The notes beneath the pieces were generated by a model. It was not told where the DNA came from. It made no database searches and saw only the letters and a program-made list of their open reading frames with translations. The position numbers and the translations under genes were made by a program. Of a DNA stretch of 39,717 nt, positions 2-33,900 are shown piece after piece (position 1 is the first letter of the stretch; each line of letters begins with the position of its first letter). This stretch comes from a virus, in IMG/VR virus record IMGVR_UViG_3300030382_004862, positions 1-39,717 of that record; one strand, 5' to 3'.

Positions 2-2146
2 ACAACAACAACTTATACTGATAGTTCAAGTACTAATAAATCTACTACTACTACATATAATACATCCACATCTACAGCATATGAGACAAGTCATAGTACC
101 ACGACTACATTTAACACTACAACTAATACCGAGGTAAGTACTAATAAAAACACTACAACTACTTTTGAAACTAGTAAGACCACAACTTATAATACTACTA
201 AATCAACAGCTATAGAAAAGAAAAAAGATATGAGTTGGTCGACACATTATAATACAAGTACGTCTACTAACACAGTATATAACACAAGTACTAATACTAC
301 CACTACATATAATACAAGTACCGATACCACAACTACATTTGATACGTCCACAATTGTATCAACAAGTAAAAGTACGACCACAACCTATAATACTAGCACC
401 ACTGAATTAACAGTATACCAGACACTTTGGTCAACTACTAAAAGTACAGTTGTAGAAACTAGTAAGTCTACGGATACTACAACTACTTATGAAACCTATA
501 AAAGTACTTCTACAGCTTATAACACTAGTACTCAAACTAGAAATATGATCCAAACAACTAGAGCGACAGCAACTACGACAGCATATTCTACATCTTGGAG
601 CACTAGTAAAAGTACAACTACTACGTATAATACTTCTACAGCTACCACTACAACTTATAATACGAGCACTAATACTACAACAACGTATAATACAGCTACT
701 ACAACGGTTGTTAGTACTAGTAAGAGCACAACTACCACATGGGCAACATCAAAATCTACAACTGAAACATCATCTACTAGTAAATCTACTACCACAACGT
801 ATAACACAAGTACAGCTACTACAACTACTTTTAATACTGCTACAAATACAACAACGACGTATAATACAAGTACATCTACCGTAGTAAGCACGAGTAAATC
901 TACTACTACAGTATATAACACAGCAAGGAGCACGGATACAACATATAACACAAGTAAGAGTACTACAACTACATGGGCAACCAGTAGAAGCACAACTACA
1001 ACATTTAATACGAGTACGGCAACATTAACAACTAGAGCTACAGCCACAGTTGTTTCAACGAGTAAAGCAACAGCTACAGTAGTTTCTACTAGTAAAAGTA
1101 CTACTACAACCTATAATACTAGTCGTTCTACTACAACCACTTATAACACAGCTACTAATACAACAACCGCTTATACTACAACGTGGAATACAAGTAAATC
1201 AACATTAACATCTCGAAGTACTACAACAACTTTCAATACAACAACAGCATATAATACGAGTACAGCTACAACCACAACTTATAATACAGCCACAACGACA
1301 ACTATAAGTACAACCACCACTTGGAGTACTAGCAAGAGTACCACAACTGCATATAATACAAGTACCGCAACTATTACAACTTTTAACACAAGTAAAACAA
1401 CAACAATAAGTACTACCACAACTTGGAGTACAAGTAAAAGTACTACCACAACGTATAATACAAGTAAAAATACAACGGAAAGTAGATCAACTACAACAAC
1501 GTATACAACTAATACAGCGTATAATACTAGTACTATAACAACTATAAGTACAACAACAACTTGGTCTACAAGCAAGAGCACTACTACAACTTATAATACA
1601 AGTAAAAATACATCTGAAAGTAGATCTACCACTACAACGTTTTCAACTAGTACGGTGTATAATACATCTACAAGTACTACAACTGCTTATAATACTACGA
1701 CAACCACAACTATAAGTACAACCACAACGTGGTCAACTAGTCATGAGACTACTACAACCTTTAATACAACTACAACATATACTACCACAACCACATATGA
1801 AACTAGTCAGAGTACAACGACAACATTTAGTACAGCAACAACTAGAAGTACAACTACCACTTGGAATACTAGTAAATCAACAACAACCACGTTTAGTACA
1901 GCAACAACTCGATCTACAACAACCACATGGTCTACTCAAAGATCTACAACAACTACGTATAATACGTCTCAAGTGACTAGTAAAAATACTACAACAGCAT
2001 ATACAACATATTGGAATACTAGTACAACAACTGCAGCTGGTGATACGACGTCAACAGTAACAAGTACGTCAAAAACAACAACAACATACTGGAACACAAC
2101 GAGAACTACTGAAACAGGTGGTGGGTGTCCTAGAGGATGTCAATAA
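2..2146 (+). CDS. Thr/Ser/Asn-rich repeat protein, probable fibre (5'-partial)
   Basis: The frame is open from base 2 with no stop, so the gene enters from the left. The ATG at 230 is internal: the 76 codons before it encode the same repeat. At least 714 residues remain. Almost all are Thr, Ser, Asn, Tyr/Phe/Trp and Lys in units of 10 residues (TTTTYNTSTA type), broken by 8-residue units (STVVSTSK type) and ISTTTTWSTS variants. Hydrophobic core residues are nearly absent, so an extended or solenoidal beta fibre is more likely than a globular fold. The C-terminus changes to GGGCPRGCQ, giving two cysteines in a protein otherwise without them. No named family is recognised. A fibre or adhesin role is inferred from the repeats, size and position beside virion genes; a secreted or capsule-like product cannot be excluded. 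Confidence 0.7.
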   Translation, partial: TTTTYTDSSSTNKSTTTTYNTSTSTAYETSHSTTTTFNTTTNTEVSTNKNTTTTFETSKTTTYNTTKSTAIEKKKDMSWSTHYNTSTSTNTVYNTSTNTTTTYNTSTDTTTTFDTSTIVSTSKSTTTTYNTSTTELTVYQTLWSTTKSTVVETSKSTDTTTTYETYKSTSTAYNTSTQTRNMIQTTRATATTTAYSTSWSTSKSTTTTYNTSTATTTTYNTSTNTTTTYNTATTTVVSTSKSTTTTWATSKSTTETSSTSKSTTTTYNTSTATTTTFNTATNTTTTYNTSTSTVVSTSKSTTTVYNTARSTDTTYNTSKSTTTTWATSRSTTTTFNTSTATLTTRATATVVSTSKATATVVSTSKSTTTTYNTSRSTTTTYNTATNTTTAYTTTWNTSKSTLTSRSTTTTFNTTTAYNTSTATTTTYNTATTTTISTTTTWSTSKSTTTAYNTSTATITTFNTSKTTTISTTTTWSTSKSTTTTYNTSKNTTESRSTTTTYTTNTAYNTSTITTISTTTTWSTSKSTTTTYNTSKNTSESRSTTTTFSTSTVYNTSTSTTTAYNTTTTTTISTTTTWSTSHETTTTFNTTTTYTTTTTYETSQSTTTTFSTATTRSTTTTWNTSKSTTTTFSTATTRSTTTTWSTQRSTTTTYNTSQVTSKNTTTAYTTYWNTSTTTAAGDTTSTVTSTSKTTTTYWNTTRTTETGGGCPRGCQ

Positions 2147-2179
2147 AATATAAATAAAACAAGTAATAATAATAATAAT

Positions 2180-3241
2180 ATGGCAACAGATTTTCAAAAG
2201 GGATATAAGAAAGCAAAACTAACGTTTGAAAGTGATAGAATTACTTTTCAAAACGAGCTTACTAATTGGAAGTTTTCTCCTGGGGTAATGGAAGTTATGA
2301 TGGATTGGGAACAACCTATTATGGAAAAAATGGCGGAAATCGCTGTATCCGAAGGGGACCATGTTCTTGAGTGTGGTTTTGGTATGGGTATATTATCTGA
2401 TGCTATTCAAGCAAGGAATCCTGCATCACATACTATTTGCGAAAATCATCCTGATATAATACCTAAAATGAGAGCATGGGCAGAAGGTAAATCTAATATT
2501 ATTTTACATGAAGATAGATGGTTTACATTAATAGAACAAACTGGTAGATACGATGCAATACTAATGGACACGTATGCTGATGATGATTTACATCCACGAT
2601 TTGTTTATTTCTGTAGAAATAAAGGTGCAAAATCAGGTTGTAAAATTAGTTGGTGGAACTGGAGTGGTGGTACAACAGATGAATATATGAAATTCTATTG
2701 GGATAATGTATCGTTTACTGATGTGGCTGTAGATCCTCCATTAAATTCATATTATAATAAAGATATATATAAAGTACCATTAAAAATATTAACTCCAAAT
2801 CCTACAAGTTATGGTGTGCTTAAAGGATCAACAATTCATAAGTATGATCATGATGATGATATAGTTGCTAAATCAACAGAACTTATAGGCTCAAATCATA
2901 ACATTGTAACATGTGCAGATCCTAGTAATCCTAGTTTAGTAAAACAACAAAATTCAATACGTTTTATTATGGGTTGTAAAGGTGTGTATACAATAAATGA
3001 TGATTTATTAACCGCAACTGGTAATCATCCAATGATAATAAAAAGAGATGGATCATGGATAACTGACAAAAAAATGAATGAATTAGTTGTTGGTGACAAA
3101 CTTTATACAATAGATGATACAGAAGTTGAAGTTCAAAAAATACAATTTGATGGTGATACAAAAAATGAAGTGGTACGCTTAGAAATGGATTATAATTATT
3201 TTGTTAACAGTATTTTAATGAAAGGAGGATCTGATGGCTAA
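2180..3241 (+). CDS. GAMT/Rmt2-like methyltransferase fused to a degenerate Hint domain
   Basis: Residues about 40-205 form a class I SAM-dependent methyltransferase resembling guanidinoacetate and arginine delta-N methyltransferases: WEQPIMEKMAE near 43-53, the SAM loop VLECGFGMG at 62-70, the acidic ENHPDII at 88-94, and YDAILMDTYADDD at 124-136 (GAMT has FDGILYDTY). Residues about 211-348 look like a Hint/intein fold: GSTIHKYD near 216, TGNHPM with the TxxH pair T280/H283, ELVVGDKLYTID near 301-312, and VVRLEMDYNYFVNSILM near 331-347. The usual N-terminal Cys/Ser is missing (Val213 or neighbours align there) and the C-terminal His-Asn is replaced by Lys-Gly-Gly, so splicing looks impossible. 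A (TAA)5 run at 2164-2179 abuts the ATG. The gene overlaps the next by 8 bases. The substrate is unknown; the neighbouring fibres are a guess. Confidence 0.72.
   Translation: MATDFQKGYKKAKLTFESDRITFQNELTNWKFSPGVMEVMMDWEQPIMEKMAEIAVSEGDHVLECGFGMGILSDAIQARNPASHTICENHPDIIPKMRAWAEGKSNIILHEDRWFTLIEQTGRYDAILMDTYADDDLHPRFVYFCRNKGAKSGCKISWWNWSGGTTDEYMKFYWDNVSFTDVAVDPPLNSYYNKDIYKVPLKILTPNPTSYGVLKGSTIHKYDHDDDIVAKSTELIGSNHNIVTCADPSNPSLVKQQNSIRFIMGCKGVYTINDDLLTATGNHPMIIKRDGSWITDKKMNELVVGDKLYTIDDTEVEVQKIQFDGDTKNEVVRLEMDYNYFVNSILMKGGSDG
3221..3228 (+). promoter_or_regulatory. Strong Shine-Dalgarno site for the 1850-aa fibre gene
   Basis: AAAGGAGG ends five bases before the ATG at 3234 and lies inside the last codons of the methyltransferase-Hint gene, where it encodes Lys-Gly-Gly. 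It is the only near-perfect Shine-Dalgarno match in front of a gene start in this window. Other starts have A/T-only leaders. It could raise fibre translation, or it could be a by-product of the Hint C-terminal sequence. Confidence 0.5.
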
Positions 3242-6200
3242 TACTACAACAACTTTTCAAACTAGTCAGGGTACAACAACAGTATATGGTACTAGTACAG
3301 TATTTATTGGTCCTGTAACTACAGAATGGCAAACAAGTTCAGCTACTAGTAGGACTACGTCAACACAATATACAACAACTTGGGCTACTCAAAAATCAAC
3401 TACCACTACTTACAATACTAGTCAGAGTACAACAACAACATTTAATACATTAACAACTAGATCCACTACCACAACATATAATACTAGTCAAAGTACGACT
3501 ACTACATTTAACACGTTAACAACTAGAAGTACAACTACCACTTGGAATACTAGTAAAACTACAACAGAAAGTAGAAGTACTGCTACGAGTAGGAGTACAA
3601 CAACCACTTATAATACTAGTACAACAACCCAAACGGCTTATACTACAACCTGGGGAACTAGTAAGAGTACCACAACAACATATGAAACATCTCATAGTAC
3701 ATTAACAAGTAGAGCAACAACCACGACATATACTACGTCAACCACTTACGAAACAAGTCATTCTACTACTACAACATTCAACACTAGTACGACGACACAA
3801 ACTGCTTATACAACCACTTGGGCAACATCAAGAAATACAACAGAAAGTAGAAGTACCACAACTACGTACACTACCACAACTACATACGAAACAAGTCATA
3901 GTACAACTACAACTTACAACACAAGTCAATCTACAGAAACCGCATATACTACCACATGGGCTACTAATAGAAGTACTACTGAAACATCTGCAACAAGTCA
4001 TAGCACAACTACAACATATAATACTAGTACAACAACACAGACAGCTTATACAACAACATGGTCTACGAGTAAAAGTACAACAGAGACATCATCAACAAGT
4101 CATAGTACATCAACAAGTAGAAGTACTACAACAGAATTTAGTACAACAACTACATATAACACAAGTACAATTACATCTAAAGCTACATCTACAGTTGTAA
4201 GCACTAGTAAATCCACAACGACCACTTATAATACTAGTAAATCGACAACGACTACTTACAACACTAGCACAAACACAACCACAACCTATAATACAAGTAC
4301 CAACACTACTACAACATTTAGTACAACAACAGTGGTGTCAACTAGTAGATCAACGACCACAACATTTAATACATCTACCACCACTACAACAGTTTATAAT
4401 ACAGCGAGAAGTACTGATACAACATATAATACTAGTCATAGTACCACAACAACTTTTAATACAGCAACAACAACAGTGGTAAGTACAAGTAAAGCAACTT
4501 CTACAGTAGTTAGTACAAGTAAAAGCACGACTACAACTTGGTCAACAAGTAAATCTACAACAACAGCATATAATACTTCGACTGCTACAACAACCACGTA
4601 TAATACCAGCACAAGTACAACGACTACATATAATACAGCAACATCAACTGTAGTAAGTACTAGTAAGGCAACCGCTACAGTTGTATCGACTAGTAAAAGT
4701 ACTACTTCAACATGGTCAACTAGTAAAAGTACAACAACCACATTCAATACAAGTACCATTACATCTAAAAGTACGAATACAACAACTACTTATATAGTTA
4801 ACACTGATATAGCAACTGCTTATAACACGAGTACATCTACTACCACTTGGTATAATACATCAAAAACTACAACCACAACTACAGTATATAATACTAGTAC
4901 AACAACATCATATAACACAACTACAGTTACAAAACCACTTACTACTACAACTTGGAGTACTAGTAAATCTACAACAACGGTATATAATACATCTACAGAT
5001 ACTTCTACTACCAAAGCTACATCTACAGTAGTATCTACATCAAAAACTACGTCTACAGTGGTTAGTACTAATAGAAATACTACTACAACATATTCTACAC
5101 AACCTACCACAACAAAACCCGCAATACTTTGGAGGTATCCACATACAGCAAGTTTATCAGGAGCTCTATATAATTGGGATACAAATATAAACGTGTCTGT
5201 ATTCGCTGGTGCTGGAAAAATAAAAGGTAACAGTACTGATACACAAGCTATAACAATACTACAAGTAGCTGCAGTTGATGCTGATAGTAATGATAAAAAT
5301 AATGTATTTGATTCAATAGATGGTGCATCTACTACAAGTGGTAATTTAGGTTCAATAAGAATAAGATCTTCTACTGAAACACTTTCTGCACAATATAGAA
5401 TAACTGAGGTTATTCCTTCAGGAGATGATACCTATTTTTTACTATATGTAACATACACGCATGCTCCAATTGCAGGTGAAGACACACATGCGTTTGGAGG
5501 TGGTAAAGTAATGGATTGTCATATGATAAGATATGATGAGGGTGGTTATAATACATCTACTACCACCACGTATAATACTAGTACAACAACTACATATAAT
5601 ACGTCAACTGCTACAAATACAGTATATAATACTACTACTGCAACCACATGGAGTACGAGTAAAAGCACAACAACTACATATAATACGACCACTACTACAA
5701 CATATAATACTTCTACTAATACAACTACAGTTTATAATACCGCTACAATAGTTAACAGAGGAACATCAACCACTTACAATACAAGTACTAGTACTACTAC
5801 AACTTACGAAACTACTAAAAGTACAAATACAGTAGTTAGTACAAGTAAACTAACTACTAAAACAACATCTACTGTTGTTTCAACGTCGAAATCTACTACT
5901 ACAACATGGAATACAAGTACTGATACTACAACAGTATATAATACTACTACGAATACCACAACTACATATAATACACAAACTGACACTACAACAGCTTATA
6001 CGACTACATGGAATACATCTACTTCTACCACTACCACATATAATACAAGTACTGATACCAATACCACTTGGAGCACAAGTAAAAGTACTACTACAATATT
6101 TAATACACAAACTGCTACTAACACAATATATACTACAAGTTGGGAAACTAGTAAGACAACAATATTTGAAACTAGTTCGATCACAAGTAAAAATACTGAT

Positions 6201-8786
6201 ACAACATGGAGTACTAGTAAAAATACTACGACAACATATAATACACAAACTAATACTCAAACAGCATATACAACCACGTGGGCTACAAGTAAAGCTACAG
6301 ATGAAACATCATCAACTAGTAAAAGTACAACAACAATATATAATACATCTAAAAGTACCACAACAACATATAATACTAGTACGTCTACTACAACTACATA
6401 TACTACAACAAAATCAACAAGTAAATCAACTGACACTGTTGTATCAACTAGTAAAAATACAACTACTACTTTTAATACGACTACTGCTACAACTACTACA
6501 TGGGCAACTAGTAAATCTACCACAACAACTTGGGCTACTAGTAAGAATACAACGACTACATATAACACTGCTACGAATACTACAACATTATTTACAACAA
6601 CGTTTAATACTAGTACAGCTACTACAACCACTTATAATACAAATACGGCTACTACGACAACGTTTAACACGAGTACAAACACAACAACCACTTATAACAC
6701 AAGTACGTCTACAGTGGTTTCAACGTCTAAATCAACAACAACAACGTGGAGTACAAGTAAGTCTACTACGACAACGTTCAACACAACTACAGCTACTACC
6801 ACAACATACAATACAACAACAAGTACTACGACTACGTACAATACTAGTACAGCTACGGTTGTAAGTACTAGTAAAGCAACATCCACTGTTGTTTCAACAA
6901 GTAAAAGCACGACTACTACATTTAATACTAGTACTGCAACAACTACTACATTTAATACGTCTACAGCTACTACTACAACTTATAATACATCAACAAATAC
7001 TACTACGACATATAATACTAGTACGTCAACTACAGTTTCAACTAGTAAATCAACAAGTACGGCATTTAACACTTCTACAGCCACAACTACGGTTTACAAT
7101 ACATTCAGGAGTACAGACACTACATATAATACTAATCTTAGTACAACTACTATATATAATACTGCAACCACAACTGTAGTTTCTACAAGTAAAAGTACCA
7201 CTACAACCTGGTCAACAAATAAAAGTACTACTACAACATACAGTACATCTAAAAGTACCACAACCACATTTAACACGAGTACTAATACAACTACTACATA
7301 TAATACCTCAACATCAACCACCAATCATACATTTTATGATACATCTACTGTTGTAGAAACTAGTAAAAGTACTACAACCGCATATAATACTACCACAGCA
7401 ACAACAACCATATACAATACGAGTACTAACACAACGACCGCGTTTAACACAAGTACAACAACTACTTGGACTACAAGTAAAGCAACTTCTACTTCGCGAT
7501 CTACTACTAAAGAAACTAATACAGTAGTTGAGACAAGTAAAAGTACCACTACTACTTTTAATACTTCGACCACTACAACAACTACGTATAATACTTCTAC
7601 TAGTACAGTAGTTTCAACTAGTAAATCTACTACAACTGTATATAATACTTTGAGATCAACTAATACCACATATAATACTAGTAAAAGCACAACTACTACG
7701 TGGAATACATCTACTGCTACAACAACTACTTATAACACAAGTACCGCTACAGTAGTATCTACTAGTAAAAGTACATCTACGGTTGTAGAAACGAGTAAAT
7801 CAACGACAACAACATTTAATACAAGTACCGCTACAACGACTACGTATAATACGAGTACAGCGACAACTACGACATATAATACAAGTACTAACACGGTGGT
7901 AAGTACAAGTAAATCAACAACTACAACATGGTCTACTAGTAAAAGCACCACTACCACATATGAAACTAGTAAAAGTACCACAACTACTTACAATACAAGT
8001 ACTAACACAACAACCACGTTTAATACAGCTACAACAACCACGTGGAGTACTAGTAAAGCAACGGCTACCGTGGTATCTACATCTAAAAGTACAACAACTA
8101 CTTGGTCTACTAGTAAGAGTACTACAACAACATACAATACACAAACCGCTACTACTACAACGTATAATACCGCTACAAGTACAGTAGTTAGTACCAGTAA
8201 ATCTACTACTACTACATGGAGCACGAGTAAATCTACTACTACAACATATGAGACTAGTAAAAGTACTACAACGACTTATAACACTAGTACAAACACTACT
8301 ACTACATATAACACGAGTACGTCAACTGTTATGTCTACTAGTAAATCTACCACAACAGTATATAATACTGCTAGAAGTACTAACACTACGTATAATACTA
8401 CTAAAAGTACAACTACTACGTTTAATACATCAACTAATACCACTACTACGTTTAATACTAGTACAACTACTACGTGGAATACATCAAAAGCAACCGCGAC
8501 AGTAGTTAGCACAAGTAAATCTACGACTACTACTTACAATACCAGTAAGTCTACAACCACAACGTATAATACATCAACTACTATAACTACAACATTTAAT
8601 ACGTCAACTAGTACAACCACAACGTTTACTACTGGTGGTACTACAACAACGACTTACAACACAAGTACGACGATTACAACAACATTTAATACAACCACAA
8701 CATTTAATACGACTAAATCATGGTTTAGTACGTATAGACAAGATCTGTCTACGGAACGTGTAGATTTTAACAGATCAACAACTTAG
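3234..8786 (+). CDS. Giant Thr/Ser/Asn-rich repeat fibre with one internal globular domain
   Basis: This 1850-residue protein is mostly 10-residue units, TTTT(Y/F/W)NTS plus two variable positions (TA, TN, TS, KS, RS or HS), punctuated by 8-residue STVVSTSK units and TAYTTTWATS variants. Residues about 629-771 are different: a 143-residue mixed domain starting AILWRYPHTASLSG and ending MIRYDEGG, with normal hydrophobic content and strands such as AQYRITEVI and YFLLYVTYTH. After residue 1780 the repeats decay into GGTTTTTYNTS and a polar tail ending DFNRSTT. No signal peptide is seen. The start is fixed by the Shine-Dalgarno site at 3221-3228 and by the repeat beginning at once. The likely role is a virion adhesion fibre: repeats as shaft, inserted domain as binding, capping or trimerisation module. 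No named family is recognised for the repeat. Confidence 0.75.
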   Translation: MANTTTTFQTSQGTTTVYGTSTVFIGPVTTEWQTSSATSRTTSTQYTTTWATQKSTTTTYNTSQSTTTTFNTLTTRSTTTTYNTSQSTTTTFNTLTTRSTTTTWNTSKTTTESRSTATSRSTTTTYNTSTTTQTAYTTTWGTSKSTTTTYETSHSTLTSRATTTTYTTSTTYETSHSTTTTFNTSTTTQTAYTTTWATSRNTTESRSTTTTYTTTTTYETSHSTTTTYNTSQSTETAYTTTWATNRSTTETSATSHSTTTTYNTSTTTQTAYTTTWSTSKSTTETSSTSHSTSTSRSTTTEFSTTTTYNTSTITSKATSTVVSTSKSTTTTYNTSKSTTTTYNTSTNTTTTYNTSTNTTTTFSTTTVVSTSRSTTTTFNTSTTTTTVYNTARSTDTTYNTSHSTTTTFNTATTTVVSTSKATSTVVSTSKSTTTTWSTSKSTTTAYNTSTATTTTYNTSTSTTTTYNTATSTVVSTSKATATVVSTSKSTTSTWSTSKSTTTTFNTSTITSKSTNTTTTYIVNTDIATAYNTSTSTTTWYNTSKTTTTTTVYNTSTTTSYNTTTVTKPLTTTTWSTSKSTTTVYNTSTDTSTTKATSTVVSTSKTTSTVVSTNRNTTTTYSTQPTTTKPAILWRYPHTASLSGALYNWDTNINVSVFAGAGKIKGNSTDTQAITILQVAAVDADSNDKNNVFDSIDGASTTSGNLGSIRIRSSTETLSAQYRITEVIPSGDDTYFLLYVTYTHAPIAGEDTHAFGGGKVMDCHMIRYDEGGYNTSTTTTYNTSTTTTYNTSTATNTVYNTTTATTWSTSKSTTTTYNTTTTTTYNTSTNTTTVYNTATIVNRGTSTTYNTSTSTTTTYETTKSTNTVVSTSKLTTKTTSTVVSTSKSTTTTWNTSTDTTTVYNTTTNTTTTYNTQTDTTTAYTTTWNTSTSTTTTYNTSTDTNTTWSTSKSTTTIFNTQTATNTIYTTSWETSKTTIFETSSITSKNTDTTWSTSKNTTTTYNTQTNTQTAYTTTWATSKATDETSSTSKSTTTIYNTSKSTTTTYNTSTSTTTTYTTTKSTSKSTDTVVSTSKNTTTTFNTTTATTTTWATSKSTTTTWATSKNTTTTYNTATNTTTLFTTTFNTSTATTTTYNTNTATTTTFNTSTNTTTTYNTSTSTVVSTSKSTTTTWSTSKSTTTTFNTTTATTTTYNTTTSTTTTYNTSTATVVSTSKATSTVVSTSKSTTTTFNTSTATTTTFNTSTATTTTYNTSTNTTTTYNTSTSTTVSTSKSTSTAFNTSTATTTVYNTFRSTDTTYNTNLSTTTIYNTATTTVVSTSKSTTTTWSTNKSTTTTYSTSKSTTTTFNTSTNTTTTYNTSTSTTNHTFYDTSTVVETSKSTTTAYNTTTATTTIYNTSTNTTTAFNTSTTTTWTTSKATSTSRSTTKETNTVVETSKSTTTTFNTSTTTTTTYNTSTSTVVSTSKSTTTVYNTLRSTNTTYNTSKSTTTTWNTSTATTTTYNTSTATVVSTSKSTSTVVETSKSTTTTFNTSTATTTTYNTSTATTTTYNTSTNTVVSTSKSTTTTWSTSKSTTTTYETSKSTTTTYNTSTNTTTTFNTATTTTWSTSKATATVVSTSKSTTTTWSTSKSTTTTYNTQTATTTTYNTATSTVVSTSKSTTTTWSTSKSTTTTYETSKSTTTTYNTSTNTTTTYNTSTSTVMSTSKSTTTVYNTARSTNTTYNTTKSTTTTFNTSTNTTTTFNTSTTTTWNTSKATATVVSTSKSTTTTYNTSKSTTTTYNTSTTITTTFNTSTSTTTTFTTGGTTTTTYNTSTTITTTFNTTTTFNTTKSWFSTYRQDLSTERVDFNRSTT
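3330..5105 (+). repeat. Protein-level 10/8-residue repeat array, first block
   Basis: Tandem units are regular in amino acids but not in bases. Thr is spelled ACA, ACT, ACC and ACG, and Ser AGT, AGC, TCA, TCT, TCC and TCG, so adjacent units seldom match over long stretches. The pair Thr-Ser is often spelled ACTAGT. The aromatic residue recurs about every 10 codons, followed by Asn-Thr-Ser. Confidence 0.85.
5118..5546 (+). other. Globular domain inserted in the repeat fibre
   Basis: This covers residues about 629-771 of the 1850-aa protein. It begins at PAILWRYP, contains alternating hydrophobic strands (INVSVFAG, AITILQVAAVDAD, GSIRIRSSTETLSAQYRITEV, YFLLYVTYTHAP) and ends before the repeats resume at YNTSTTTT. 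The pattern resembles the small beta-rich domains of phage tail fibres (polar strand, IxSTxxxxxYxITxV, Y-x-hydrophobic-V-x-Y), but that is only a resemblance. It is the best candidate for a receptor-binding, capping or folding-nucleus module. Confidence 0.6.
5547..8730 (+). repeat. Protein-level 10/8-residue repeat array, second block
   Basis: This is the continuation of the repeat after the globular domain, about 1060 residues. Runs of TTTTYNTSTN-type units are separated by TVVSTSKS units. The higher-order order varies (for example VVSTSKATATVVSTSKS), so it is not a simple duplication of the first block. Codons are scrambled as in the first block. Confidence 0.8.
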
Positions 8787-8845: not shown

Positions 8846-9754
8846 ATGGAAATGTTTAATAAAAAGGAGTTGGACAAAAGAATAGGTCCACTCAAAAAAA
8901 GTAAAAACTTAGATGAACTTGAACAAATTGAGGGCTACGTAATACGAAAATGTAGTGAACTTGATATAGAAACAAGTTATGATGTTTTAGCAGAAGAAAT
9001 GCCTTATTTTAAAACAATGGCATATACTGAATTTGCTACTAATTTTTATCTTCAACCATTGAATGTAAAACTTAGAAATGAACAGATGATCGATGCTTAT
9101 AATGATAATATTAAAAAGCCAGATGATTGGTCATCGTATTTAGTAAATAATGTAATAAAAAAATCTGTTAATAAATATCAAGATAGAAAAGATAAAACAG
9201 ATAAATGGCCAGCTAAAGATTACTTAGTAGTATTACCTGGTTCAAATAAAGTAAAAACTAATGTTTGTTTAAATAGATTAAGATTTATATCTAAACAACA
9301 TGGTAATAATGTATATTTTAAACCACATCCAATAACAACACATCAAATCATTGGTGAGTTAAAGGATTTCTTTGGTGAAGCTAATATACTACCTAGAGAT
9401 GTTGATATGTACCATTATATGCAAAAAGCTAAAAAAGTATATACAACACATATAAGTGAAAGCGCTATTTATGCAGCGGTATTAGGTAAAAGAATAGAAC
9501 CAATTGATATTTGGAATAATATACATATGGGATCTTTTGCTTGTATAAATAATCATTTATTTACACATCAAGATAATGTAAAAGAATATATTAATAAAAT
9601 ATTTTCTAGTCCTAAGTCTGGTATTATAAATCCAGCTATAGACAAAAATTGGAAAGATAAAGTAGATAAATATTTTGATTATATTTGTAAAAAAAGAGAT
9701 GTTTATAATTCTTGGTTTATAGATACTAGGAAACCAAAGCAAGAAAAGAAGTAA
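8846..9754 (+). CDS. GT-B-like capsule/teichoic-type glycosyl- or glycerophosphotransferase
   Basis: This is a 302-residue protein. Residues about 127-135 form a hydrophobic strand (YLVVLPGSN), followed by VYFKPHPIT with K159-P-H161-P162, then AKKVYTTHISESAIYAAVLGKRIEPID around 195-220. A KPHP followed by a Ser/Glu-rich HISESAIYAAVLGKR segment is the nucleotide-sugar or CDP-alcohol binding half of KpsS/capsule-synthesis, TagF and sialyltransferase-like GT-B enzymes. The first 120 residues are helical and charged and match no family I recognise. The gene follows the giant fibre after a 59-base A/T-rich gap. It might decorate the Ser/Thr-rich fibres or alter host surface glycans. The family call is moderate; donor and acceptor are unknown. 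Confidence 0.55.
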   Translation: MEMFNKKELDKRIGPLKKSKNLDELEQIEGYVIRKCSELDIETSYDVLAEEMPYFKTMAYTEFATNFYLQPLNVKLRNEQMIDAYNDNIKKPDDWSSYLVNNVIKKSVNKYQDRKDKTDKWPAKDYLVVLPGSNKVKTNVCLNRLRFISKQHGNNVYFKPHPITTHQIIGELKDFFGEANILPRDVDMYHYMQKAKKVYTTHISESAIYAAVLGKRIEPIDIWNNIHMGSFACINNHLFTHQDNVKEYINKIFSSPKSGIINPAIDKNWKDKVDKYFDYICKKRDVYNSWFIDTRKPKQEKK

Positions 9755-11389: not shown

Positions 11390-13600
11390 ATGTATAAACA
11401 AATTTTATATAAGGTTATAGAACCTATAAAAATAAATACCGTTAAAAGACTTAATAAGTCTAAAAAATGGAAATATGGTTATAACAAAGAAAACGATGTT
11501 ATAGTTATAAGTAAAACAGGTCAAATTGGTGAGATATATGAGATACAAAATCTTAAAATAGCTTTACCAAAAATACCTAAAAAAATTCATAAATTTAATA
11601 GTGACAAATGGGAGGTAACCGCACAACCTCAACCATTAAAAAGAATTAAAACTATATTTGATTGGAAAGAATACCCTAATAATTTTAAAAATCAACATAT
11701 AGATTATATAGAAGAAGAATTTAAAAGAAGAGAAGATGGGTTTTGGTATTACAATAAAGGTGTACCAACCTATATAACAGGCACACACTATATGTACCTA
11801 CAATGGTCAAAAATTGATGTAGGTCATCCAGATTTTAGAGAAGCTAATAGATTGTTTTATCTATTCTGGGAAGCATGCAAAGCTGATCAAAGATGTTATG
11901 GAATGTGTTATTTAAAAAATAGACGTTCTGGATTTTCTTTTATGGCATCTGGTGAGATAGTTAATTTAGCAACAATATCAAGTGATTCAAGATACGGTAT
12001 ACTTTCCAAAACTGGTTGGGATGCTAAAAAGATGTTTACTGATAAGGTTGTACCAATATCGCTTAATTATCCATTCTTTTTTAAACCGATACAAGATGGT
12101 ATGGATCGACCTAAAACAGAATTAGCATATAGAGTACCAGCTAGTAAGTTAACTAGAAGAAAAATAACTAGTAATGAAAAACTAGAAGAGTTAGAAGGTT
12201 TAGATACTACTATAGATTGGAAAAATACAGCGGATAATAGTTATGATGGTGAAAAGTTAAAGCTATTAGCACATGATGAAAGCGGAAAATGGGAGAGACC
12301 TGAAAATATTTTAAATAACTGGAGAGTTACTAAAACTACTTTAAGACTTGGTAGTAGAATTATAGGTAAATGCATGATGGGTTCTACATCTAATGCTTTA
12401 GATAAAGGTGGTGATAATTTTAAAAAACTATATAATAATTCAAATGTTACAAAAAGAAACCGCAATGGACAGACTAGCTCAGGATTATATTCTTTGTTCA
12501 TACCTATGGAATGGAACTACGAGGGATTCATTGATTCTTATGGAATGCCTGTATTTGATACGCCAGAAACAGAGGTTAAAGGACCATATGGTGATTATAT
12601 AGATACTGGAATTATAGATCATTGGCAAAATGAAGTTGATGGTTTAAAAAATGATCAAGACGGTTTAAATGAATTTTATCGTCAATTTCCAAGAACAGAA
12701 GATCATGCGTTTAGAGATGAAACAAAAGGTAGTATATTTAATTTAGTAAAAATATACGAACAAATAGATTTTAATGATTTTGGATCTCATCCTATAAAGG
12801 GTAGTTTTGTATGGGAGAATGGAGTAAAAGATACAAACGTTAAATTTTATCCAGATAAAACGGGTAGGTTTAATATATCTTGGGTTCCACCATTAAGTTT
12901 ACAAAATAACTATTTTATAAAAAATGGTAAAAAACAACCCAGTAATGAGCACATGGGTGCTTTTGGATGTGATAGTTATGATATATCAGGTACTGTAGAT
13001 GGATTAGGATCAAAAGGTTCTCTACATGGTTTAACTAAATTTAGTATGGAAGATGTACCACCCAATACATTCTTTTTAGAATATATAGCTAGACCTCAAA
13101 CCGCTGAAATGTTTTTTGAAGATGTTTTAATGGCGTTAGTATTTTATGGAATGCCATTATTAGCAGAAAATAATAAACCTAGACTTTTATATTATTTAAA
13201 ACGTAGAGGTTATAGAGGTTATTCAATGAATAGACCTGATAAAATTTGGAATAAACTATCTGTTGCAGAAAGAGAAGTTGGTGGAATACCAAATTCTAGT
13301 GAAGATATTAAACAAGCTCACGCTTCAGCTATAGAAAGTTATATACAACAACACGTGGGTTTAAAAGAAAATGGTGAACAAGGTAATATAAATTTTAATA
13401 CAACGCTAAATGATTGGGCTCGATTTGATATTAATAATAGAACAAAGTTTGATGCTACTATTAGTTCAGGTTTAGCAATTATGGCATGTAATAAACATTT
13501 ATATAGACCCAGACCAGCAAGAAACCAAACAACTACAAGTTTTGGTTTTACAAAATACGACAATAAAGGTATGTTATCAAAAGTAATAAATAATGATTAA
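11390..13600 (+). CDS. terL: Large terminase subunit (TerL), DNA-packaging ATPase/nuclease
   Basis: This is a 736-residue protein, the motor that pumps DNA through the portal. Residues about 127-160 (YITGTHYMYLQWSKIDVG) match the start of crAss-like and marine Bacteroidota-phage TerL. The Walker A-like loop is KNRRSGFS at 176-183, a variant of the RRxGKS terminase motif with Phe in place of Lys. Walker B is KLLAHDE with D296/E297. The nuclease half has FGCDSYD near D528, as in RNase H-fold terminase nucleases, with later acidic residues such as those in SSEDIKQAH. It overlaps the portal gene by 8 bases. The family is assigned from motifs, length and neighbours. The missing canonical Lys suggests that an Arg in the loop takes its role, as known for this terminase group. 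Confidence 0.88.
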   Translation: MYKQILYKVIEPIKINTVKRLNKSKKWKYGYNKENDVIVISKTGQIGEIYEIQNLKIALPKIPKKIHKFNSDKWEVTAQPQPLKRIKTIFDWKEYPNNFKNQHIDYIEEEFKRREDGFWYYNKGVPTYITGTHYMYLQWSKIDVGHPDFREANRLFYLFWEACKADQRCYGMCYLKNRRSGFSFMASGEIVNLATISSDSRYGILSKTGWDAKKMFTDKVVPISLNYPFFFKPIQDGMDRPKTELAYRVPASKLTRRKITSNEKLEELEGLDTTIDWKNTADNSYDGEKLKLLAHDESGKWERPENILNNWRVTKTTLRLGSRIIGKCMMGSTSNALDKGGDNFKKLYNNSNVTKRNRNGQTSSGLYSLFIPMEWNYEGFIDSYGMPVFDTPETEVKGPYGDYIDTGIIDHWQNEVDGLKNDQDGLNEFYRQFPRTEDHAFRDETKGSIFNLVKIYEQIDFNDFGSHPIKGSFVWENGVKDTNVKFYPDKTGRFNISWVPPLSLQNNYFIKNGKKQPSNEHMGAFGCDSYDISGTVDGLGSKGSLHGLTKFSMEDVPPNTFFLEYIARPQTAEMFFEDVLMALVFYGMPLLAENNKPRLLYYLKRRGYRGYSMNRPDKIWNKLSVAEREVGGIPNSSEDIKQAHASAIESYIQQHVGLKENGEQGNINFNTTLNDWARFDINNRTKFDATISSGLAIMACNKHLYRPRPARNQTTTSFGFTKYDNKGMLSKVINND

Positions 13601-22257: not shown

Positions 22258-25200
22258 ATGGCAGAAATAAAAAGGACCTTTATAAAAGGCAAGATGAATC
22301 AAGATCTCGATGAGAGACTTATACAAGATGGTGAATATAGAGAAGCTCAAAATATTAAAATCTCTGAATCAGATGATAGTGATAGTGGTGCTATTGAAAC
22401 CGTTAAGGGTAATGAATTAATAAGTCAAGCTTTAAGTCCAGCTATTGCTGGTACTCCAGAAGTTATTGGTGAATATACTGATATAAAAAATAAACGTTTA
22501 ATATATTTTATAAGTAATTTTGCTGGTTTAGTTGACTTTTCAGATAATATAAGAAAAATAACAAGAGCAAGAGGAGCTGGTACGAGTAGTTATAGTGGAA
22601 GTTCTACAGATGATTGTGCTATAGTTATGATGGACATGTCTGGTGGTAATTCTTTTAGTACATTAGTACAAGGAGCTTGGTTAAATTTTAGTAAAAATCA
22701 CTTAATAACAGGTGTTCAACTTATAGATGATTTACTTTTTTGGACAGATGATTACAATCAACCAAGAAAAATTAATATAACTAGAGCAATTGCTAGTAGC
22801 ACACATTATCAATATGAAGACCAAATAAGTGTTGCTAAATATGCTCCATATGAAACTATAAGATTAGCTAATAATTCTGGCGTTAGTGGTTTATCAACAG
22901 TAGCAACAACTACTATTGGATCAGATTATTTACAAGATAAATTCGTAAGATTTTCATATAGATATAAATATGAAGATGGTGAGTATTCAATAATAGCACC
23001 TTTTACAGGAACTATTTTTAAACCATTAAATACCGGTATTATTAGTAATACTGATGATAGCAATAATGCTGTAAGTAATGAACCCACTGTTTCAATAAGT
23101 AAACACGAGGTATATAGAAAAACAACTGTTGATATAATGCAGAACGCTATTAATAAAGCTGTATTAAGAATACCTATACCGAATATTAATGAACGAGGAC
23201 ATACATCAGATGATTTTAGTAGTGCATATGCAAATCCATATAATATAACAAATATTGAAATATTATTAAAAGAATCAGATGGTTTAAGTTTTAAATTAGT
23301 AAAAGATATACCAGTAACAAATGATGCTGGTAATGTTTTATCTGCTTTTAATTCAAACGTAGAAGTATATACTATAAAGCCAACAGCAACTAGTAGTACA
23401 TTTTATAGACAAGTATATAGTTATACTTATAGATCTGAAAAACCATATAGAACACTTCCTGAAGATGAAATAATGAGGGTTTTTGATCAAGTACCTTTAT
23501 TAGCTAAATCGTTAGAAATAAGTAGTAATAGAGTTATTTTTGGTAATTATGTAGAAAACTACCCTTATCCATTAGATTATAGTGGTAGAAAAGGTATGAA
23601 TTTTGTTATATCAGATGCTCCAAAAGGTGATAACGAATGGCATAGTGGCGCTTTTGCGGCAAATGGTAAACTACAATATTTAGCTGAATCATATCCTTAT
23701 CATTCTACAAAACAAAGAAGAAATTATCAAGTAGGTATTGTATTTGCAGATAAATTTGGTAGACAATCTCCAGTAATATTAACATCCCACGTGCCGTCTA
23801 GTGATTCGGATTTAGATACACATAATATAGCACCAATCACTGGTGATCTTTCAGATGATTTCGGTGGTGCTTATAGTTGGTCGAATGAAAGAGCTGCTTA
23901 TGGTAGAGAATTAGTAATAGATTTTAAAGATACAGAAGGAGTAATTAAAAACTCTACAGGTGATAACACAATATATAATGGTACTTTTGGTGCAGATTAT
24001 AATCCACATGGTTGGTATTCTTATAGAATAGTAGTACAACAAACACAACAAGATTATTACAATGTATATTGTTCGCACCCTTTTGATGGTTGGAATAATA
24101 TAGATAGTTTAGCTGATACTACATATTCTGGTAAAAGTTGGTTAAGTTTATATGGAGACAATATAAATAAAGTACCAAGAGCTATTAATGATCAAGATGT
24201 TAATCGACCTGGTATTATGGGTTCAGATGTTGAATTATATCCCAAAGTAGTATTTGCAGCTGCGGGTGAATCAGCAATGAACAATCAAGTACATTATTTA
24301 ACAGATGTAATATCACTAGGAGATGCTTTTGAACAGAACATGTTTATATCTGGTGATGATAATGTTTCTGGTACAGGTGGTTTTAGTGTATATAATTTTA
24401 TATATGGTAAAGATAAAAATCCTTTAATAGCAGAACTACCTAATATGAAAATATATGGTGCCACGGCTGATGGTAATAGTTTGTTAGAAACTGGTTATAT
24501 TAAAACTGCTACAACTGATGCTAACACATTTGTTTTAGATAACGATCAAGATCCCGATAATACTGATGCTACAACTTATGCTAATGATTTCTTTAATGAT
24601 TATACTATAAACCACAGTAGTTTAAAATTTGTTGGTGAAGAGGGAAAAGTAGTAAAAGTTACAGATTACACTGCTACATCACCTGATGATACAGTAACGA
24701 TAACAAGTGAGCAAACATTTGTTGCTGGTGATATGGTATTATTTAGTAAATATTATGAAGGATTGTCTGTTTTTGAAACAGAACCTTTTGAATCAAAAAT
24801 AGATATATTTTATGAAACAGCAACGAGTGGTTTAATAGAAGATTTAAATGCACAGGTGCAAGCCGCTGCAACAGGTGGACCTACTGGTGGAGTATGGGCG
24901 AGTGGAGAGACAGTTGAAGAATTTACAGAAGCAGCAACAGCAAGTGGTTTAACTCAACAAACGGTTGGTACTTTTAAAGCTGTAAGAGATGCTACTTTAT
25001 CCTCTGGACATATATCATTTGCTATTGAAAATGGTTATGGTACAGATGAAACAGGTGGTACACATGGATTTACATTAGGATCAGTTGAAGAGGTTGGTGG
25101 TGTTGGTTATAATAACGCAGTACCTATATTAACAAATGATACCTATGCTTTTAAAAATACAGTAGCTGATAATATAACATTAAGAATTATTGCTACTGAC

Positions 25201-25986
25201 AGTGTTGGTTCAACAACACATGAGGTGTTATGTAAAAAAACAAATGCTGCTCCAACATTTAGTTTTGCTTCTATACAAACAGCAGAAGTTGCTGCATCAG
25301 CAGCAGCTGACCAACTTGCTTTTGAAGATCCAGATATAAGTAATGGTGCTAGTAAAACTGCTGGTGAATTAGATAATCTATCTATTGCTTTTAACTTTAG
25401 TAGTTATACAACTGCTAATTCTTACTTTACAATTGCAATAGATGATAATAACGTTCAATTGAAAACAACTTCTTCATGGGCCGCAGCAGCTGATGCATTT
25501 TTTGATTTAACGTCAACACAAAGAACATGTACCTTAACATTAACGGATAATACGGATTCTAGTGCTTTATTAACAGATACTTTACCTGTATTAATTTCTG
25601 AAAGTTCACCATCAGAAACAGGAAATTTAGTATACAATGCTTGTGCTTACCCTGAAGGTTCAACTGATGTAGACGATCTTGGTCATTACAATTCTGATCC
25701 AGATTATTGCGCAGAAGTTGCATCACAATATTGGGCGGTACAAGGCACTGGTGCTTCTGCACCAACGGTTTCAGAGGGATATCTTGTTCTTGTACCTGGT
25801 AATATACTATATACTAATTCAGGTTTATCAAGTGTAGCAAGTAATGGTTGTTATAATTGGGATATTGCTTCTGGAGATTATAGCGCTAAAGTAGGAAACT
25901 CATGGCCAATAGATGGTTCAGGTGGAAGTAATAATGGAATAGTGGATTTAGTTGAAACTGGTGAATGTGATGATCGTGACTACTAA
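22258..25986 (+). CDS. Tail hub / stabilization protein, N-terminal part (split gene)
   Basis: This is a 1242-residue protein. It begins IKRTFIKGKMNQDLDERLIQ, DGEYREAQNIKISES, the signature of P22 gp10-like 'stabilization' or crAss-type tail hub proteins of marine phages (NKDLDERLVPNGEYRDAxNI). A long beta-rich region follows, ending at FETEPFESKIDIFYETATSG near residue 860. The rest (about 870-1240) carries cadherin/Ig-like repeats (NAAPTFSFASIQ, DPDISNGAS, LTLTDNTDSS) and a Cys-containing end (NLVYNACAYPEGS ... ETGECDDRDY). In homologues I recall, the chain continues into the ISYYNCF segment that here starts a separate ORF at 26479, so this gene looks split. It probably closes the tail below the connectors. 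Confidence 0.75.
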   Translation: MAEIKRTFIKGKMNQDLDERLIQDGEYREAQNIKISESDDSDSGAIETVKGNELISQALSPAIAGTPEVIGEYTDIKNKRLIYFISNFAGLVDFSDNIRKITRARGAGTSSYSGSSTDDCAIVMMDMSGGNSFSTLVQGAWLNFSKNHLITGVQLIDDLLFWTDDYNQPRKINITRAIASSTHYQYEDQISVAKYAPYETIRLANNSGVSGLSTVATTTIGSDYLQDKFVRFSYRYKYEDGEYSIIAPFTGTIFKPLNTGIISNTDDSNNAVSNEPTVSISKHEVYRKTTVDIMQNAINKAVLRIPIPNINERGHTSDDFSSAYANPYNITNIEILLKESDGLSFKLVKDIPVTNDAGNVLSAFNSNVEVYTIKPTATSSTFYRQVYSYTYRSEKPYRTLPEDEIMRVFDQVPLLAKSLEISSNRVIFGNYVENYPYPLDYSGRKGMNFVISDAPKGDNEWHSGAFAANGKLQYLAESYPYHSTKQRRNYQVGIVFADKFGRQSPVILTSHVPSSDSDLDTHNIAPITGDLSDDFGGAYSWSNERAAYGRELVIDFKDTEGVIKNSTGDNTIYNGTFGADYNPHGWYSYRIVVQQTQQDYYNVYCSHPFDGWNNIDSLADTTYSGKSWLSLYGDNINKVPRAINDQDVNRPGIMGSDVELYPKVVFAAAGESAMNNQVHYLTDVISLGDAFEQNMFISGDDNVSGTGGFSVYNFIYGKDKNPLIAELPNMKIYGATADGNSLLETGYIKTATTDANTFVLDNDQDPDNTDATTYANDFFNDYTINHSSLKFVGEEGKVVKVTDYTATSPDDTVTITSEQTFVAGDMVLFSKYYEGLSVFETEPFESKIDIFYETATSGLIEDLNAQVQAAATGGPTGGVWASGETVEEFTEAATASGLTQQTVGTFKAVRDATLSSGHISFAIENGYGTDETGGTHGFTLGSVEEVGGVGYNNAVPILTNDTYAFKNTVADNITLRIIATDSVGSTTHEVLCKKTNAAPTFSFASIQTAEVAASAAADQLAFEDPDISNGASKTAGELDNLSIAFNFSSYTTANSYFTIAIDDNNVQLKTTSSWAAAADAFFDLTSTQRTCTLTLTDNTDSSALLTDTLPVLISESSPSETGNLVYNACAYPEGSTDVDDLGHYNSDPDYCAEVASQYWAVQGTGASAPTVSEGYLVLVPGNILYTNSGLSSVASNGCYNWDIASGDYSAKVGNSWPIDGSGGSNNGIVDLVETGECDDRDY

Positions 25987-27888: not shown

Positions 27889-28809
27889 ATGTGGGGACAA
27901 GTAGCACAAGCGGGAATGCAAGCAATTGGAGGAATAATCCAAGGTATTAGTGCAAGTAGAGCCGCAAAAAAAGCAAGAGCTAGAACAAAAAAACTAGAGG
28001 GTCAACTTAGAAACTTGGAAGCGAATAGACAAGATATTATAGATCCTTCAGATAGAATGGTCGATAGATCTGGTATGATACAGAATCAATTTAGTAACTT
28101 ACAAGTTGCTACAGGTGCTGCAGAAATGCAAGCCGAAGAAGCTGATATATCATTAGCAGGTACATTAGATACATTAAGAGCTACTGGAGCTGGAGCTGGT
28201 GGAGCAACTGCTTTAGCACAAGCTGCGCTTAGAAGTAAAAAAGGTATTGCTGCTACAATTGAAACACAAGAAGCACAAAATGCTAGGTTAAGAGCACAAG
28301 GCGCTCAACAAGCACAACAAGCTAGATTAGCTGAAGGTGGTAGAGTAGATTTAAGTAGACAAAGAGGTGCTATGTTTGAGTTTCAATCTTTAGAAACAAG
28401 ACAGCAAGGAAAAATTGAAAACGTTTTTGGTCAAATCGAACAATCTAGAGCTCAAGCAAACGCATTACAAGGACAAGCTGCTGCTGGATTTGGACAAGCA
28501 ATGGGAGGTGCTGCTGGTGCTCTTGGAGGTGGTATAGCAGGTTCCGCAGCATTAAAACAAAAATATTCACTGGAGAAAGAATCGGATCGTAGATTAAAGA
28601 AAAATATTAAATTAATAGGATATTCGCCTAGTGGTTTGAAAATATATATATTTGAATATATAAACAAAGCGTTAGGTAAAGGATTATTTCAAGGTGTAAT
28701 GTCAGATGAAATACCACAACATGCTGTTGTTAAAGATGACAATGGATATGATCAAGTAGATTATTCTAAATTAGACGTAACATTTAAAAGAATACAACAT
28801 GAGTTATAG
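27889..28809 (+). CDS. Internal/ejection protein with C-terminal Peptidase_S74 chaperone domain
   Basis: This is a 306-residue protein. The N-terminus MWGQVAQAGMQAIGGIIQGI is an amphipathic/hydrophobic helix followed by Ala/Gln/Arg-rich helices up to about residue 205, like internal core proteins (T7 gp14 type) that line the DNA-ejection channel. After a Gly/Ala-rich hinge (FGQAMGGAAGALGGGIAGSA), residues about 230-306 are a Peptidase_S74 intramolecular chaperone: ESDRRLKKNIKLIGYSPSG, LKIYIFEY, FQGVMSDEIPQHAV. The catalytic Ser232 and Lys237 are five residues apart, as in the endosialidase Ser-Lys dyad. Self-cleavage before Ser232 is expected, releasing about 75 residues. The gene overlaps the next by 11 bases. 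Confidence 0.8.
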   Translation: MWGQVAQAGMQAIGGIIQGISASRAAKKARARTKKLEGQLRNLEANRQDIIDPSDRMVDRSGMIQNQFSNLQVATGAAEMQAEEADISLAGTLDTLRATGAGAGGATALAQAALRSKKGIAATIETQEAQNARLRAQGAQQAQQARLAEGGRVDLSRQRGAMFEFQSLETRQQGKIENVFGQIEQSRAQANALQGQAAAGFGQAMGGAAGALGGGIAGSAALKQKYSLEKESDRRLKKNIKLIGYSPSGLKIYIFEYINKALGKGLFQGVMSDEIPQHAVVKDDNGYDQVDYSKLDVTFKRIQHEL

Positions 28810-30970: not shown

Positions 30971-33900
30971 ATGGGCGAAAGAGACAAGTTTATAAAATCT
31001 CTCGTGGATCAAGGTTTTAGCAGAGAAGAAATACATGCTAAATTAAAAGAATATGATAAAGCGGAGAAGGCAAAAAGTATCCCAAGCGATGATACAACTG
31101 ATGTATCAGAGCAAGGGGAAACAAGCGAAGCCTTTAAAATAGAGGCTGGTTCAACGGAGTTTGATAAATCAAATGCGTTATATGAGGAGAATAGGAAGAA
31201 TTATATAAACGGTACTGGTAAGTATGAAAACGTTGGTGGTACTAAAGAATCTAGAGAAAGGTATGTTGATCTGTTAGTTCCCGCACCCGAAATATCTCAA
31301 TATAAAAAAGGTACTTTCATAGAACACGTACCTGGTGCTGACACGACATTTACACCCAGCGGTAAACATTCTGGTGGTGGTACGTTTGGTAAAAAAGATA
31401 CTGGAAAAACTATTTCTTATCAACAAGAAACAGATTTTTTTAATGATTTTGAAAAACACGTTAATAAAAATTTAGATGCAAAATTTAAAGTAAAGAGAGA
31501 TAAGGACGGTAACGTTATTGACGTAAAAGATAAAAATAAAAAAGACGTAATAGATTATCAGAATAATTTATATGGAGACAACTCAGACGCTTCAGACGAT
31601 GAACTTTATAAATCTATATACGATACTATACAGAACGATTTCGTTTCAAAAGATCCTATAATTAAAAGAAAATCCGAAACTTTTAATGCTACTTTAGAAC
31701 CTCAAGTAGAAAAAATTCAACAACAATTACTCGATAAATACAAACCATTATTTGGGACATCACCTAAAGGTAATGAGAAATTATATAACGCATTACAAAA
31801 AGAATTTAAAGATAAAGTTGGTGAACTACAAAAAGACTTTTATGCAGATCCAGAAGTGCAAGCTAGATTACAAAAATATCAAGGTGTAGCAAATGGATAT
31901 TTTGATAAATTAAATAGAAAAATCAAAAGAAATAGAAGTGATTTATTTAAATTTTATGATAAAACCGGTTATTTAGGCGATTTAATAGAAGGTATTGATA
32001 TAGGTTTAACGGGTATGATGCAAGGTTATAGAGGTATAGGTTTACAAGAAGAAGAAAAAGATCTTACTAATGCTCAAAAAAGACTTAATACATTAAACCA
32101 ACAATTAAAAGCAAATCCCGATCGTGGTGACGAAGAACGTAAATATATAACAGGTGTAGAATCATTCCAAGTAACCCCGGGACCTGGAGGTTTTCATACA
32201 AGGGTTAAAACAAAGAAAGGTACTTTAAATGAACTCATAAAACAAGAGGAAGAGAATGTTAAAAAACATACAGACATATACGAGAAAAGATTAGATCGGT
32301 ATATGAAGAAACAAGATAAACAAGCTTTGTTTAATACATATTCTATAACTCAAGGTGAAGTTGGTCTAGATGATATATTAGGTACCATTGGTTCTGTAGC
32401 TCCTTATATGGGAGTTGCTTTAATACCTTATGTTGGTGTACCATTAATGGCTGCTCAAAGTTATGGTAGTTCTAGACAAGGTATATTAGCAAAGCAAATG
32501 TCTAAAGCTTTAGGTAAAGATGAATCTGCTTTAACAGCACAAGATTATATTGATTTCGCTAAAGGTAATAAAGAACAAATAGATGAATGGTTAGTTGGTG
32601 CTGGTGCAGTAGTTATGGCTGGTTTAGAAAGAATAGGTGCAACTAGAGTTGCTGGTAAAACAATAAAAGCCCTTGGCTTAGGTAAATCAGCAAGTTCTAA
32701 TGTGTATGGATCATTACTTAAAGGTCATTTAAATAAATTTGCTCAAGGTTTAGGTGGTAGAGCTAAAGATGTATCACTATCTAGTTTCTTTGAAGGTAGT
32801 ACGGAGGTTTCACAAGAATTTATTGTTGGTGTCATGGATTATTTTTCTGATGAAACTATCAATGATAAATCTGCTAAAAATGCATTTATAAATAATGAAT
32901 ATATTGACAGTGCACAAGTTTTTGAAGCTGGTGCAGCTGGTGCTTTAGTTGGTGGTTTATTTCCAGGTTTAGGTGGTATAGTTAAACAAAGTGTAGTTGA
33001 AATGAGAACAGCGGCTCGAATGTTTTCATCTAAATTTGATATGAAAAATAACCCAGCTAGAGCTGAAGAGTATTTTAATGGTGTAAAGAAAGAACTCGAT
33101 AGAAAATTAAAAAATAATGAAATAGATCAAGAAACATATGATAGAGAAACAGATTATATGCAAGGTCTATATGGTAAATCGTTAAAAATAAAAGGTCATT
33201 TAGACGCAGACGTTAAACATGATATACTTAATTTAATGTATAAACGTGATCAGAAACAAGCCGATCTTAATGATGAAAATACAGATGAATCAGAACACGC
33301 GAAGTTAAAAAAAGATATTGAAAAAATAAACAGTGAAATACAAAATAAACAAGGTGTTTCATTTGTTGAAAAAGGAGTACAAGAATTAAAAGATCTGGGT
33401 TTCACTGAAGATTTAGAAATAGATGGTAGTTTAACTCAAAAGGAATTAGAGAAGAAATTTGGTAAAGAAAATGTTTCAGATAGTGAAGGATTTTTTGATC
33501 CTGTTACAAACAAAATGTATGTTAATTCTGAACTAGCAAATTCCAAAGGTAATATCACAACAGCACAACATGAATTTTTACATCCAATAACAAAAGCTTT
33601 AATAAAAGCTGGTAAAATTAAAAAAGAAACCATAACTGAAATGGTTAGTAAATACGACAAAGATGGTTACGTACAGGGTAGATTAGATGGTGACAAAAAA
33701 ACATATACGGAAGAATATTTGAATCAAAACCCTGATGAATACCTTGCAATGTTTGGTGAAGGTGTTGCTGAAGGTAAAATAAACATAGAAGAAAACTTCT
33801 CAGGTGTAAAAAACTTTTTTAGAAAAGCTTTTAAAATGGCTATGCCTAAATCTGATATTGATTTTGATACTGTTGACGGTTTAAAGAACTTTATGGTTGA

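Follow-up and report, generated by a model that had tools for sequence, protein, structure and literature searches.

Two giant Thr-rich reading frames in a marine phage genome

The window, by which we mean the whole stretch of DNA that was analysed, spans 39717 bp and covers all of a linear record. Its gene content is that of a crAss-like marine phage, with genes for TerL, a muzzle-like protein, a portal and structural proteins; the named phages nearest by TerL have Flavobacterium, Cellulophaga and related genera as hosts. Two Thr-rich open reading frames, here called fibre A and fibre B, open the window (Table 1). As the record is linear and fibre A is open at its edge, the fibre A gene has lost its 5′ end.

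The original prediction had described positions 2–8786 as a pair of giant fibres made almost only of Thr, Ser, Asn, Lys and aromatic residues. The two open reading frames (714 and 1850 residues) are real, and T, S, N, K and Y/F/W together form 84% of the residues of A and, excluding the knob, a non-repeat domain within B, 86% of those of B. However, the open reading frame between them is a separate gene, and residues ~625–775 of B form an ordinary domain. Thr alone accounts for 48–49% of the two fibres, and there is one aromatic every 11.3–11.4 residues. A DNA pattern of two units matched 26 times in the window and never in 100 shuffles.

Table 1. Features of the locus and of related loci. Coordinates refer to the window unless a locus is named.
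Feature	Position	Strand	Remarks
Thr fibre A, C-terminal 714 aa, no start	2..2146	+	Open frame; outgoing strand in the proposed model
Fibre A C-terminus, GGGCPRGCQ	2117..2143	+	
Methyltransferase–Hint-like ORF between A and B	2180..3241	+	GAMT-like, residues 39–202
Thr fibre B, complete, 1850 aa	3234..8786	+	Open frame; returning strand in the proposed model
Knob, non-repeat domain in fibre B, residues ~625–775 (151 residues)	5106..5558	+	
Fibre B C-terminal cap (SWFSTYRQDLSTERVDFNRSTT)	8718..8783	+	Similar in L001–L007; fibre base in the proposed model
302-aa GT-B-fold protein	8846..9754	+	phrog_26179; Kdo-transferase-like; partner gene of Thr fibres
TerL	11390–13600		phrog_6681
Muzzle-like protein	22258–25986		PF25731
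KdsA	Within L123:6062–7498; also L041, L052, L075, L113, L141		One myophage group; KdsA follows the GT-B-fold gene in these loci

Elsewhere in the window, a 2774-aa protein (30971–39295) ends in a T/S/R tail (TSTRKSTTRRSTTRRRSNN) with fibre-like alternation, and the C-terminus of the protein encoded at 27889–28809 looks like an S74 chaperone (SDRRLKKNIKLIGYSPSG...VDYSKLDVTF), with no Pfam match reached.

A two-residue alternation underlies the repeat

The repeat had been read as units of 10 and 8 residues. Distances from one aromatic to the next were 4, 6, 8, 10, 14, 16, 18 and so on, that is, even, with odd values rare. The invariant is thus a two-residue alternation, of which 10 and 8 are merely common multiples, and the 10/8 unit is not supported as a structural unit. 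In fibre B, 151 of 163 aromatics fell on one absolute parity, rising to 140 of 143 without the knob and the C-terminal 35 residues; the parity was the same before the knob (52 of 53) and after it (88 of 90). Among 169 fibre ORFs, local spacing was even in a median fraction of 0.97.

Aromatics and K/R/H lie on one face of the strand and S, N and A on the other. In the window and the first relatives, the aromatic face held 93–98% of Y/F/W and 96–99% of K/R/H, compared with 2.1% of S, 0.8% of N and 4% of A. Insertions and deletions thus come in even numbers, which would be expected of one extended strand with in/out alternation that cannot slip.

Could the repeat be a low-complexity DNA expansion devoid of structural meaning? 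Tandem Repeats Finder does report arrays of period 30 and 24 in the window. Yet the 53 copies of TTTT[YF]NTS are written in 53 distinct DNA words, with a third-position identity of 0.44 against 0.77 overall while the peptide stays constant, which argues against recent slippage. Since the rules are also common to many phage lineages, we regard such an expansion as having next to no chance of being the explanation.

The two window fibres contain only 5 and 7 Gly, few aliphatics and a period of 2/10, and neither GxY triplets nor hydrophobic heptads were found in them. They are therefore neither collagen-like nor coiled-coil, as the original prediction had noted. Its view that the repeat resembles no familiar shaft also found support: neither window fibre matched Pfam or PHROGs, PDB sequence searches with the repeat, whose sensitivity is limited by low complexity, returned weak and unrelated matches with none credible, and literature searches yielded no description of it.

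The design recurs in many phages

Relatives were located by DNA pattern, protein queries having been unsuccessful. With the low-complexity filter on, tblastn with fibre B gave no match, and BLAST-type matches of fibre queries in Staphylococcus phages were simple repeats and were discarded. The repeat pattern occurred in at least 120 IMG/VR stretches. In 84,980 species genomes a single contig had it, 11.7 kb long and from a Flavobacteriales MAG. This contig (L147, NHFY01000092.1) carries the full order of A, methyltransferase, B and GT-B-fold gene and is probably phage DNA that was binned with the MAG.

The backgrounds that carry the repeat include crAss-like phages, tail-sheath phages and further phages whose head and tail genes differ from these. 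The Thr-fibre design occurs in many unrelated phages, with the GT-B-fold gene almost always adjacent.

Paired fibres share an antiparallel register

Some relatives encode the fibre in a single gene. In 14 complete single-gene fibres, a non-repeat knob or turn sits at 0.50–0.52 of the length, so that the two arms are equal (r = 0.9997 over 63–816 residues, n = 14), the N-terminal arm usually being 3–11 residues longer. Two-gene systems behave similarly: the repeat parts of A and B are of equal length (r = 0.98; 21 pairs spanning 404–1408 residues), apart from one frameshifted A and one A with a knob of ~157 aa, which were the outliers. Longer A proteins have 100–176 additional residues, mostly a C-terminal domain that is S74-like in many or Hint-like by eye. 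In a close relative of the window, a frameshift near the end breaks fibre A (L001:4952–6973), probably through a sequencing error.

In the ANTIPARALLEL register test, A was read forward against its own B read backward with the ends aligned, and aromatic spacing was compared. The end-aligned antiparallel arrangement was the single best offset in 14 of 18 pairs (p ~2e-15), whereas the parallel comparison was best in none. In the remaining four pairs the end-aligned offset was not top at the threshold used, yet it exceeded gap shuffles. When each A was instead set against a B of similar length taken from another phage, 1 of 72 combinations was end-aligned; pairs from the same clade are not fully independent, but their spacing patterns still differ enough that mismatched partners fail. 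Coincidences exceeded the expectation from shuffled spacing order in 19 of 19 pairs, although gap shuffles break local order and parallel scores were raised too in many pairs; antiparallel scores were higher than parallel ones in all 19.

The window itself follows this pattern. Its reversed A (714 residues) matched B best at the end-aligned offset of −2 among 1,700 offsets. For these C-terminal 714 residues of A, there were 33 antiparallel coincidences against 10.8 ± 2.1 expected, compared with 12 against 11.2 ± 2.1 when B was taken in the other direction. We know of no DNA event that reverses a protein sequence, and the mirrored spacing is thus best explained by two strands that co-evolved. 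What appears to be low-complexity protein becomes a readable structural code, in which spacing gives the partner, the direction and the register.

These results bear on two alternatives. In the first, A and B would be separate fibres, each a parallel homotrimeric triple-stranded beta-helix in the style of gp5 or VgrG. Long chains that keep parity are typical of intertwined trimeric beta-helices, and some A proteins carry S74 domains, which belong to trimeric fibres. Such helices predict neither equal lengths of A and B nor mirrored aromatic spacing, and a parallel register that is never the best and the mid-chain knob of single-gene forms also speak against them; we consider this arrangement improbable. 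In the second, each protein would be a single-chain beta-solenoid with Thr ladders, in the manner of ice-binding proteins. Although Thr content is high and a spacing of 10 residues is common, solenoid turns need not preserve parity, the spacings range over all even numbers where a solenoid would have a fixed rung length, Gly and other turn residues are almost absent, and the partner chain is mirrored. We judge a solenoid very unlikely. The ice-binding Thr array put forward in the original prediction has no support either, as such arrays are one-chain solenoids that predict no pair-specific antiparallel register.

A proposed out-and-back fibre

The equal lengths of A and B and their pair-specific reversed register lead us to read the two proteins as outgoing and returning strands. 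That they form virion fibres at all is suggested by gene position, by the layout of the knobs and by the S74 domains that some A proteins carry. On the computed regularities described above, namely the alternation, the equal lengths and the pair-specific end-aligned antiparallel register, together with the GT-B-fold linkage, it is likely that A and B pair as the two antiparallel strands of a single giant virion fibre. A would run outward with its N-terminus at the virion, where the GFxKKDFW-type anchor is like the one in single-gene fibres; B would return to the virion, and the tip would lie between the end of A and the start of B. In relatives with one gene, the same chain would go out and back, with the mid-chain knob or turn as the tip. 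The new beta-fibre with stacked aromatics that had been proposed survives in part: the aromatics are in register, those of A facing those of B in our model, but the two proteins would not be separate fibres. Several A/B ribbons probably close into a bundle, perhaps of six strands like the T4 gp37 needle.

For the most complete version of this model the chances seem to us about even. It comprises two giant polypeptides zipped antiparallel over their full length (~1,700 residues per strand), with aromatic spacing as the register and a coat made by a dedicated glycosyltransferase, and posits an undescribed class of beta-fibre that is widespread in marine phages and hardly found in cellular genomes. 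If true, the structure would be among the longest beta-fibres known, and it would be built by two co-evolving genes.

In the T4 gp37 tip, the work of Bartual in 2010 reportedly found an out-and-back chain with strands that follow the fibre, alternating side chains and a head at its tip. The T4 gp37 needle (PDB 2XGF) and the Bizionia prophage tip C24 (6OV6) are the nearest in design, both with out-and-back strands. By sequence statistics (arms and register), Thr fibres share the gp37-type course in which both ends lie at the base. The domains of the tip are named collar, needle and head (PMC12028318). HxH metal motifs, however, were absent from window A and B and numbered 4 in all fibres, which have 945 His; Thr-fibre strands are 60–1,700 residues long against tens in the gp37 and C24 tips; and in the Thr-fibre pair, unlike these tips, one protein would go out and another would return. 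For these reasons we do not file the Thr fibres as gp37 homologues.

Knobs of ~150 residues also occur at non-central sites, in window B and in fibre A of two relatives (L003, 717–874; L010, 688–844). The domain in L003 fibre A looks similar to the window B knob, for which no match was found in the phage collection. Present in A or B depending on the phage, these knobs look like exchangeable cargo or receptor domains.

A GT-B-fold gene accompanies the fibres

The 302-aa protein encoded behind fibre B belongs to a family of which 94 of 97 members lie no more than 500 bp from a Thr fibre, and never upstream of it. The linkage also held in reverse. Among 80 loci found by the GT-B-fold protein alone (the closest 80 of 449 relatives, and so biased to near kin), a T-rich ORF ended just upstream in 74 of the 74 that were testable.

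The structural model of the 302-aa protein (pLDDT 91) has a modified GT-B fold. Its closest folds were the Kdo transferases KpsC, WbbB and KrkA (GT107, GT99 and GT140; Z 9–10.6), which made up most of the best 14 matches listed. These enzymes share with it the fold and an HP motif, present in 43 of 43 aligned family members, at 9–16% identity. QXXXD, the nucleophile motif of retaining Kdo transferases (PMC10148158, PMC12887879), is conserved in those enzymes, but the aligned family has no conserved Q..D column, which makes Kdo uncertain as the sugar. A family profile search of PDB sequences gave no match; the Kdo-transferase-like assignment thus comes from the fold.

In six loci of one myophage group, a gene for Kdo-8-phosphate synthase (KdsA, E 4e-92) begins 12 bp beyond the GT-B-fold gene, and in five of the six it is followed by cupin, GT29-like, radical SAM-SPASM and SDR genes. 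As predicted from these genes, the run behind the fibre is a phage-encoded sugar operon. The natural reading is that the 302-aa protein would be a CMP-sugar-using glycosyltransferase acting on the fibre. Where the original prediction had offered a glycan-binding Thr array as one possibility, the linked gene suggests instead that the fibre itself may carry a glycan, and we infer glycosylation by the GT-B-fold enzyme, possibly with Kdo. If so, the locus would be a candidate phage-encoded system for virion-fibre glycosylation.

A GT-B-fold neighbour would also suit a disordered, mucin-like brush of unfolded Thr/Ser chains decorated by this enzyme. The Thr/Ser composition fits such a brush, as does the very low confidence of AlphaFold2, which gave a pLDDT of 34 for the monomer of a minimal relative. 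A brush nevertheless needs no strict two-residue alternation over 1,700 residues, nor equal arms, nor a pair-specific antiparallel register, and we hold it to be an improbable account of these proteins.

The slot between A and B and the end of fibre A

The ORF between the window fibres matches guanidinoacetate N-methyltransferase (GAMT; PDB 3orh, E 2e-11). It is a sequence relative of that enzyme but is fused to a Hint-like region: its C-terminus resembles Hint by eye, although no Hint or intein model in Pfam matched residues 201–353. In other phages, too, a methyltransferase usually occupies the slot. It is either GAMT-like or belongs to a second family, spermidine-synthase-like by eye; where A bears its own Hint-like domain, the slot holds almost nothing. 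The second family (L038:5793–6356 and relatives), which has no Pfam match, fills the slot of S74-bearing phages. GAMT-like genes also adjoin ordinary fibre genes in phages that have no Thr fibres (L011–L023), so the enzyme is not specific to the Thr-fibre system.

The end of fibre A differs between lineages. Relatives of the window lineage have a Gly run and CxRGC (CFRNCI once), and other lineages have an S74 or Hint-like domain. Pfam did not detect PF13884, the S74 intramolecular chaperone, in window fibre A; it scored above the cut-off in fibre A of the two relatives tested, L101 and L147. The methyltransferase and Hint-like modules presumably act in maturation, and one guess is that the conserved CxRGC terminus of A serves as a substrate.

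Small relatives in cultured phages

Smaller relatives, assigned by composition, gene order and in part by profile match, occur in KVP40 (KVP40.0254), other Vibrio phages and the Caulobacter phages Lullwater and Cr30. The Lullwater protein is gp41, and the GT-B-fold genes are KVP40.0256 in KVP40 and gp42 in Lullwater. The family escapes BLAST-type searches and so still stands as hypothetical protein, even in a model phage such as KVP40. In PHROG 30374, to which KVP40.0254 belongs, Thr-rich arms flank a TKGS turn and a GT-B-fold gene lies nearby, as in Thr fibres; these proteins differ in being small and in having an N-terminal domain of ~62 residues. Antiparallel self-register was not significant in the short proteins of KVP40, PVA8, Lullwater and Cr30, which have too few aromatics. 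DLP6 gp075 was rejected as a relative, as it shares only the N-terminal domain of KVP40.0254 and lacks the repeat.

As KVP40 and the Caulobacter phages carry small versions, the idea is testable in culture. The KVP40 protein with its TKGS turn is encoded at L231:3938–4531, and a relative of it in phage 6E35-1b (L233:3001–3531), missed or misannotated in the record, has a GCGKGVCG turn.
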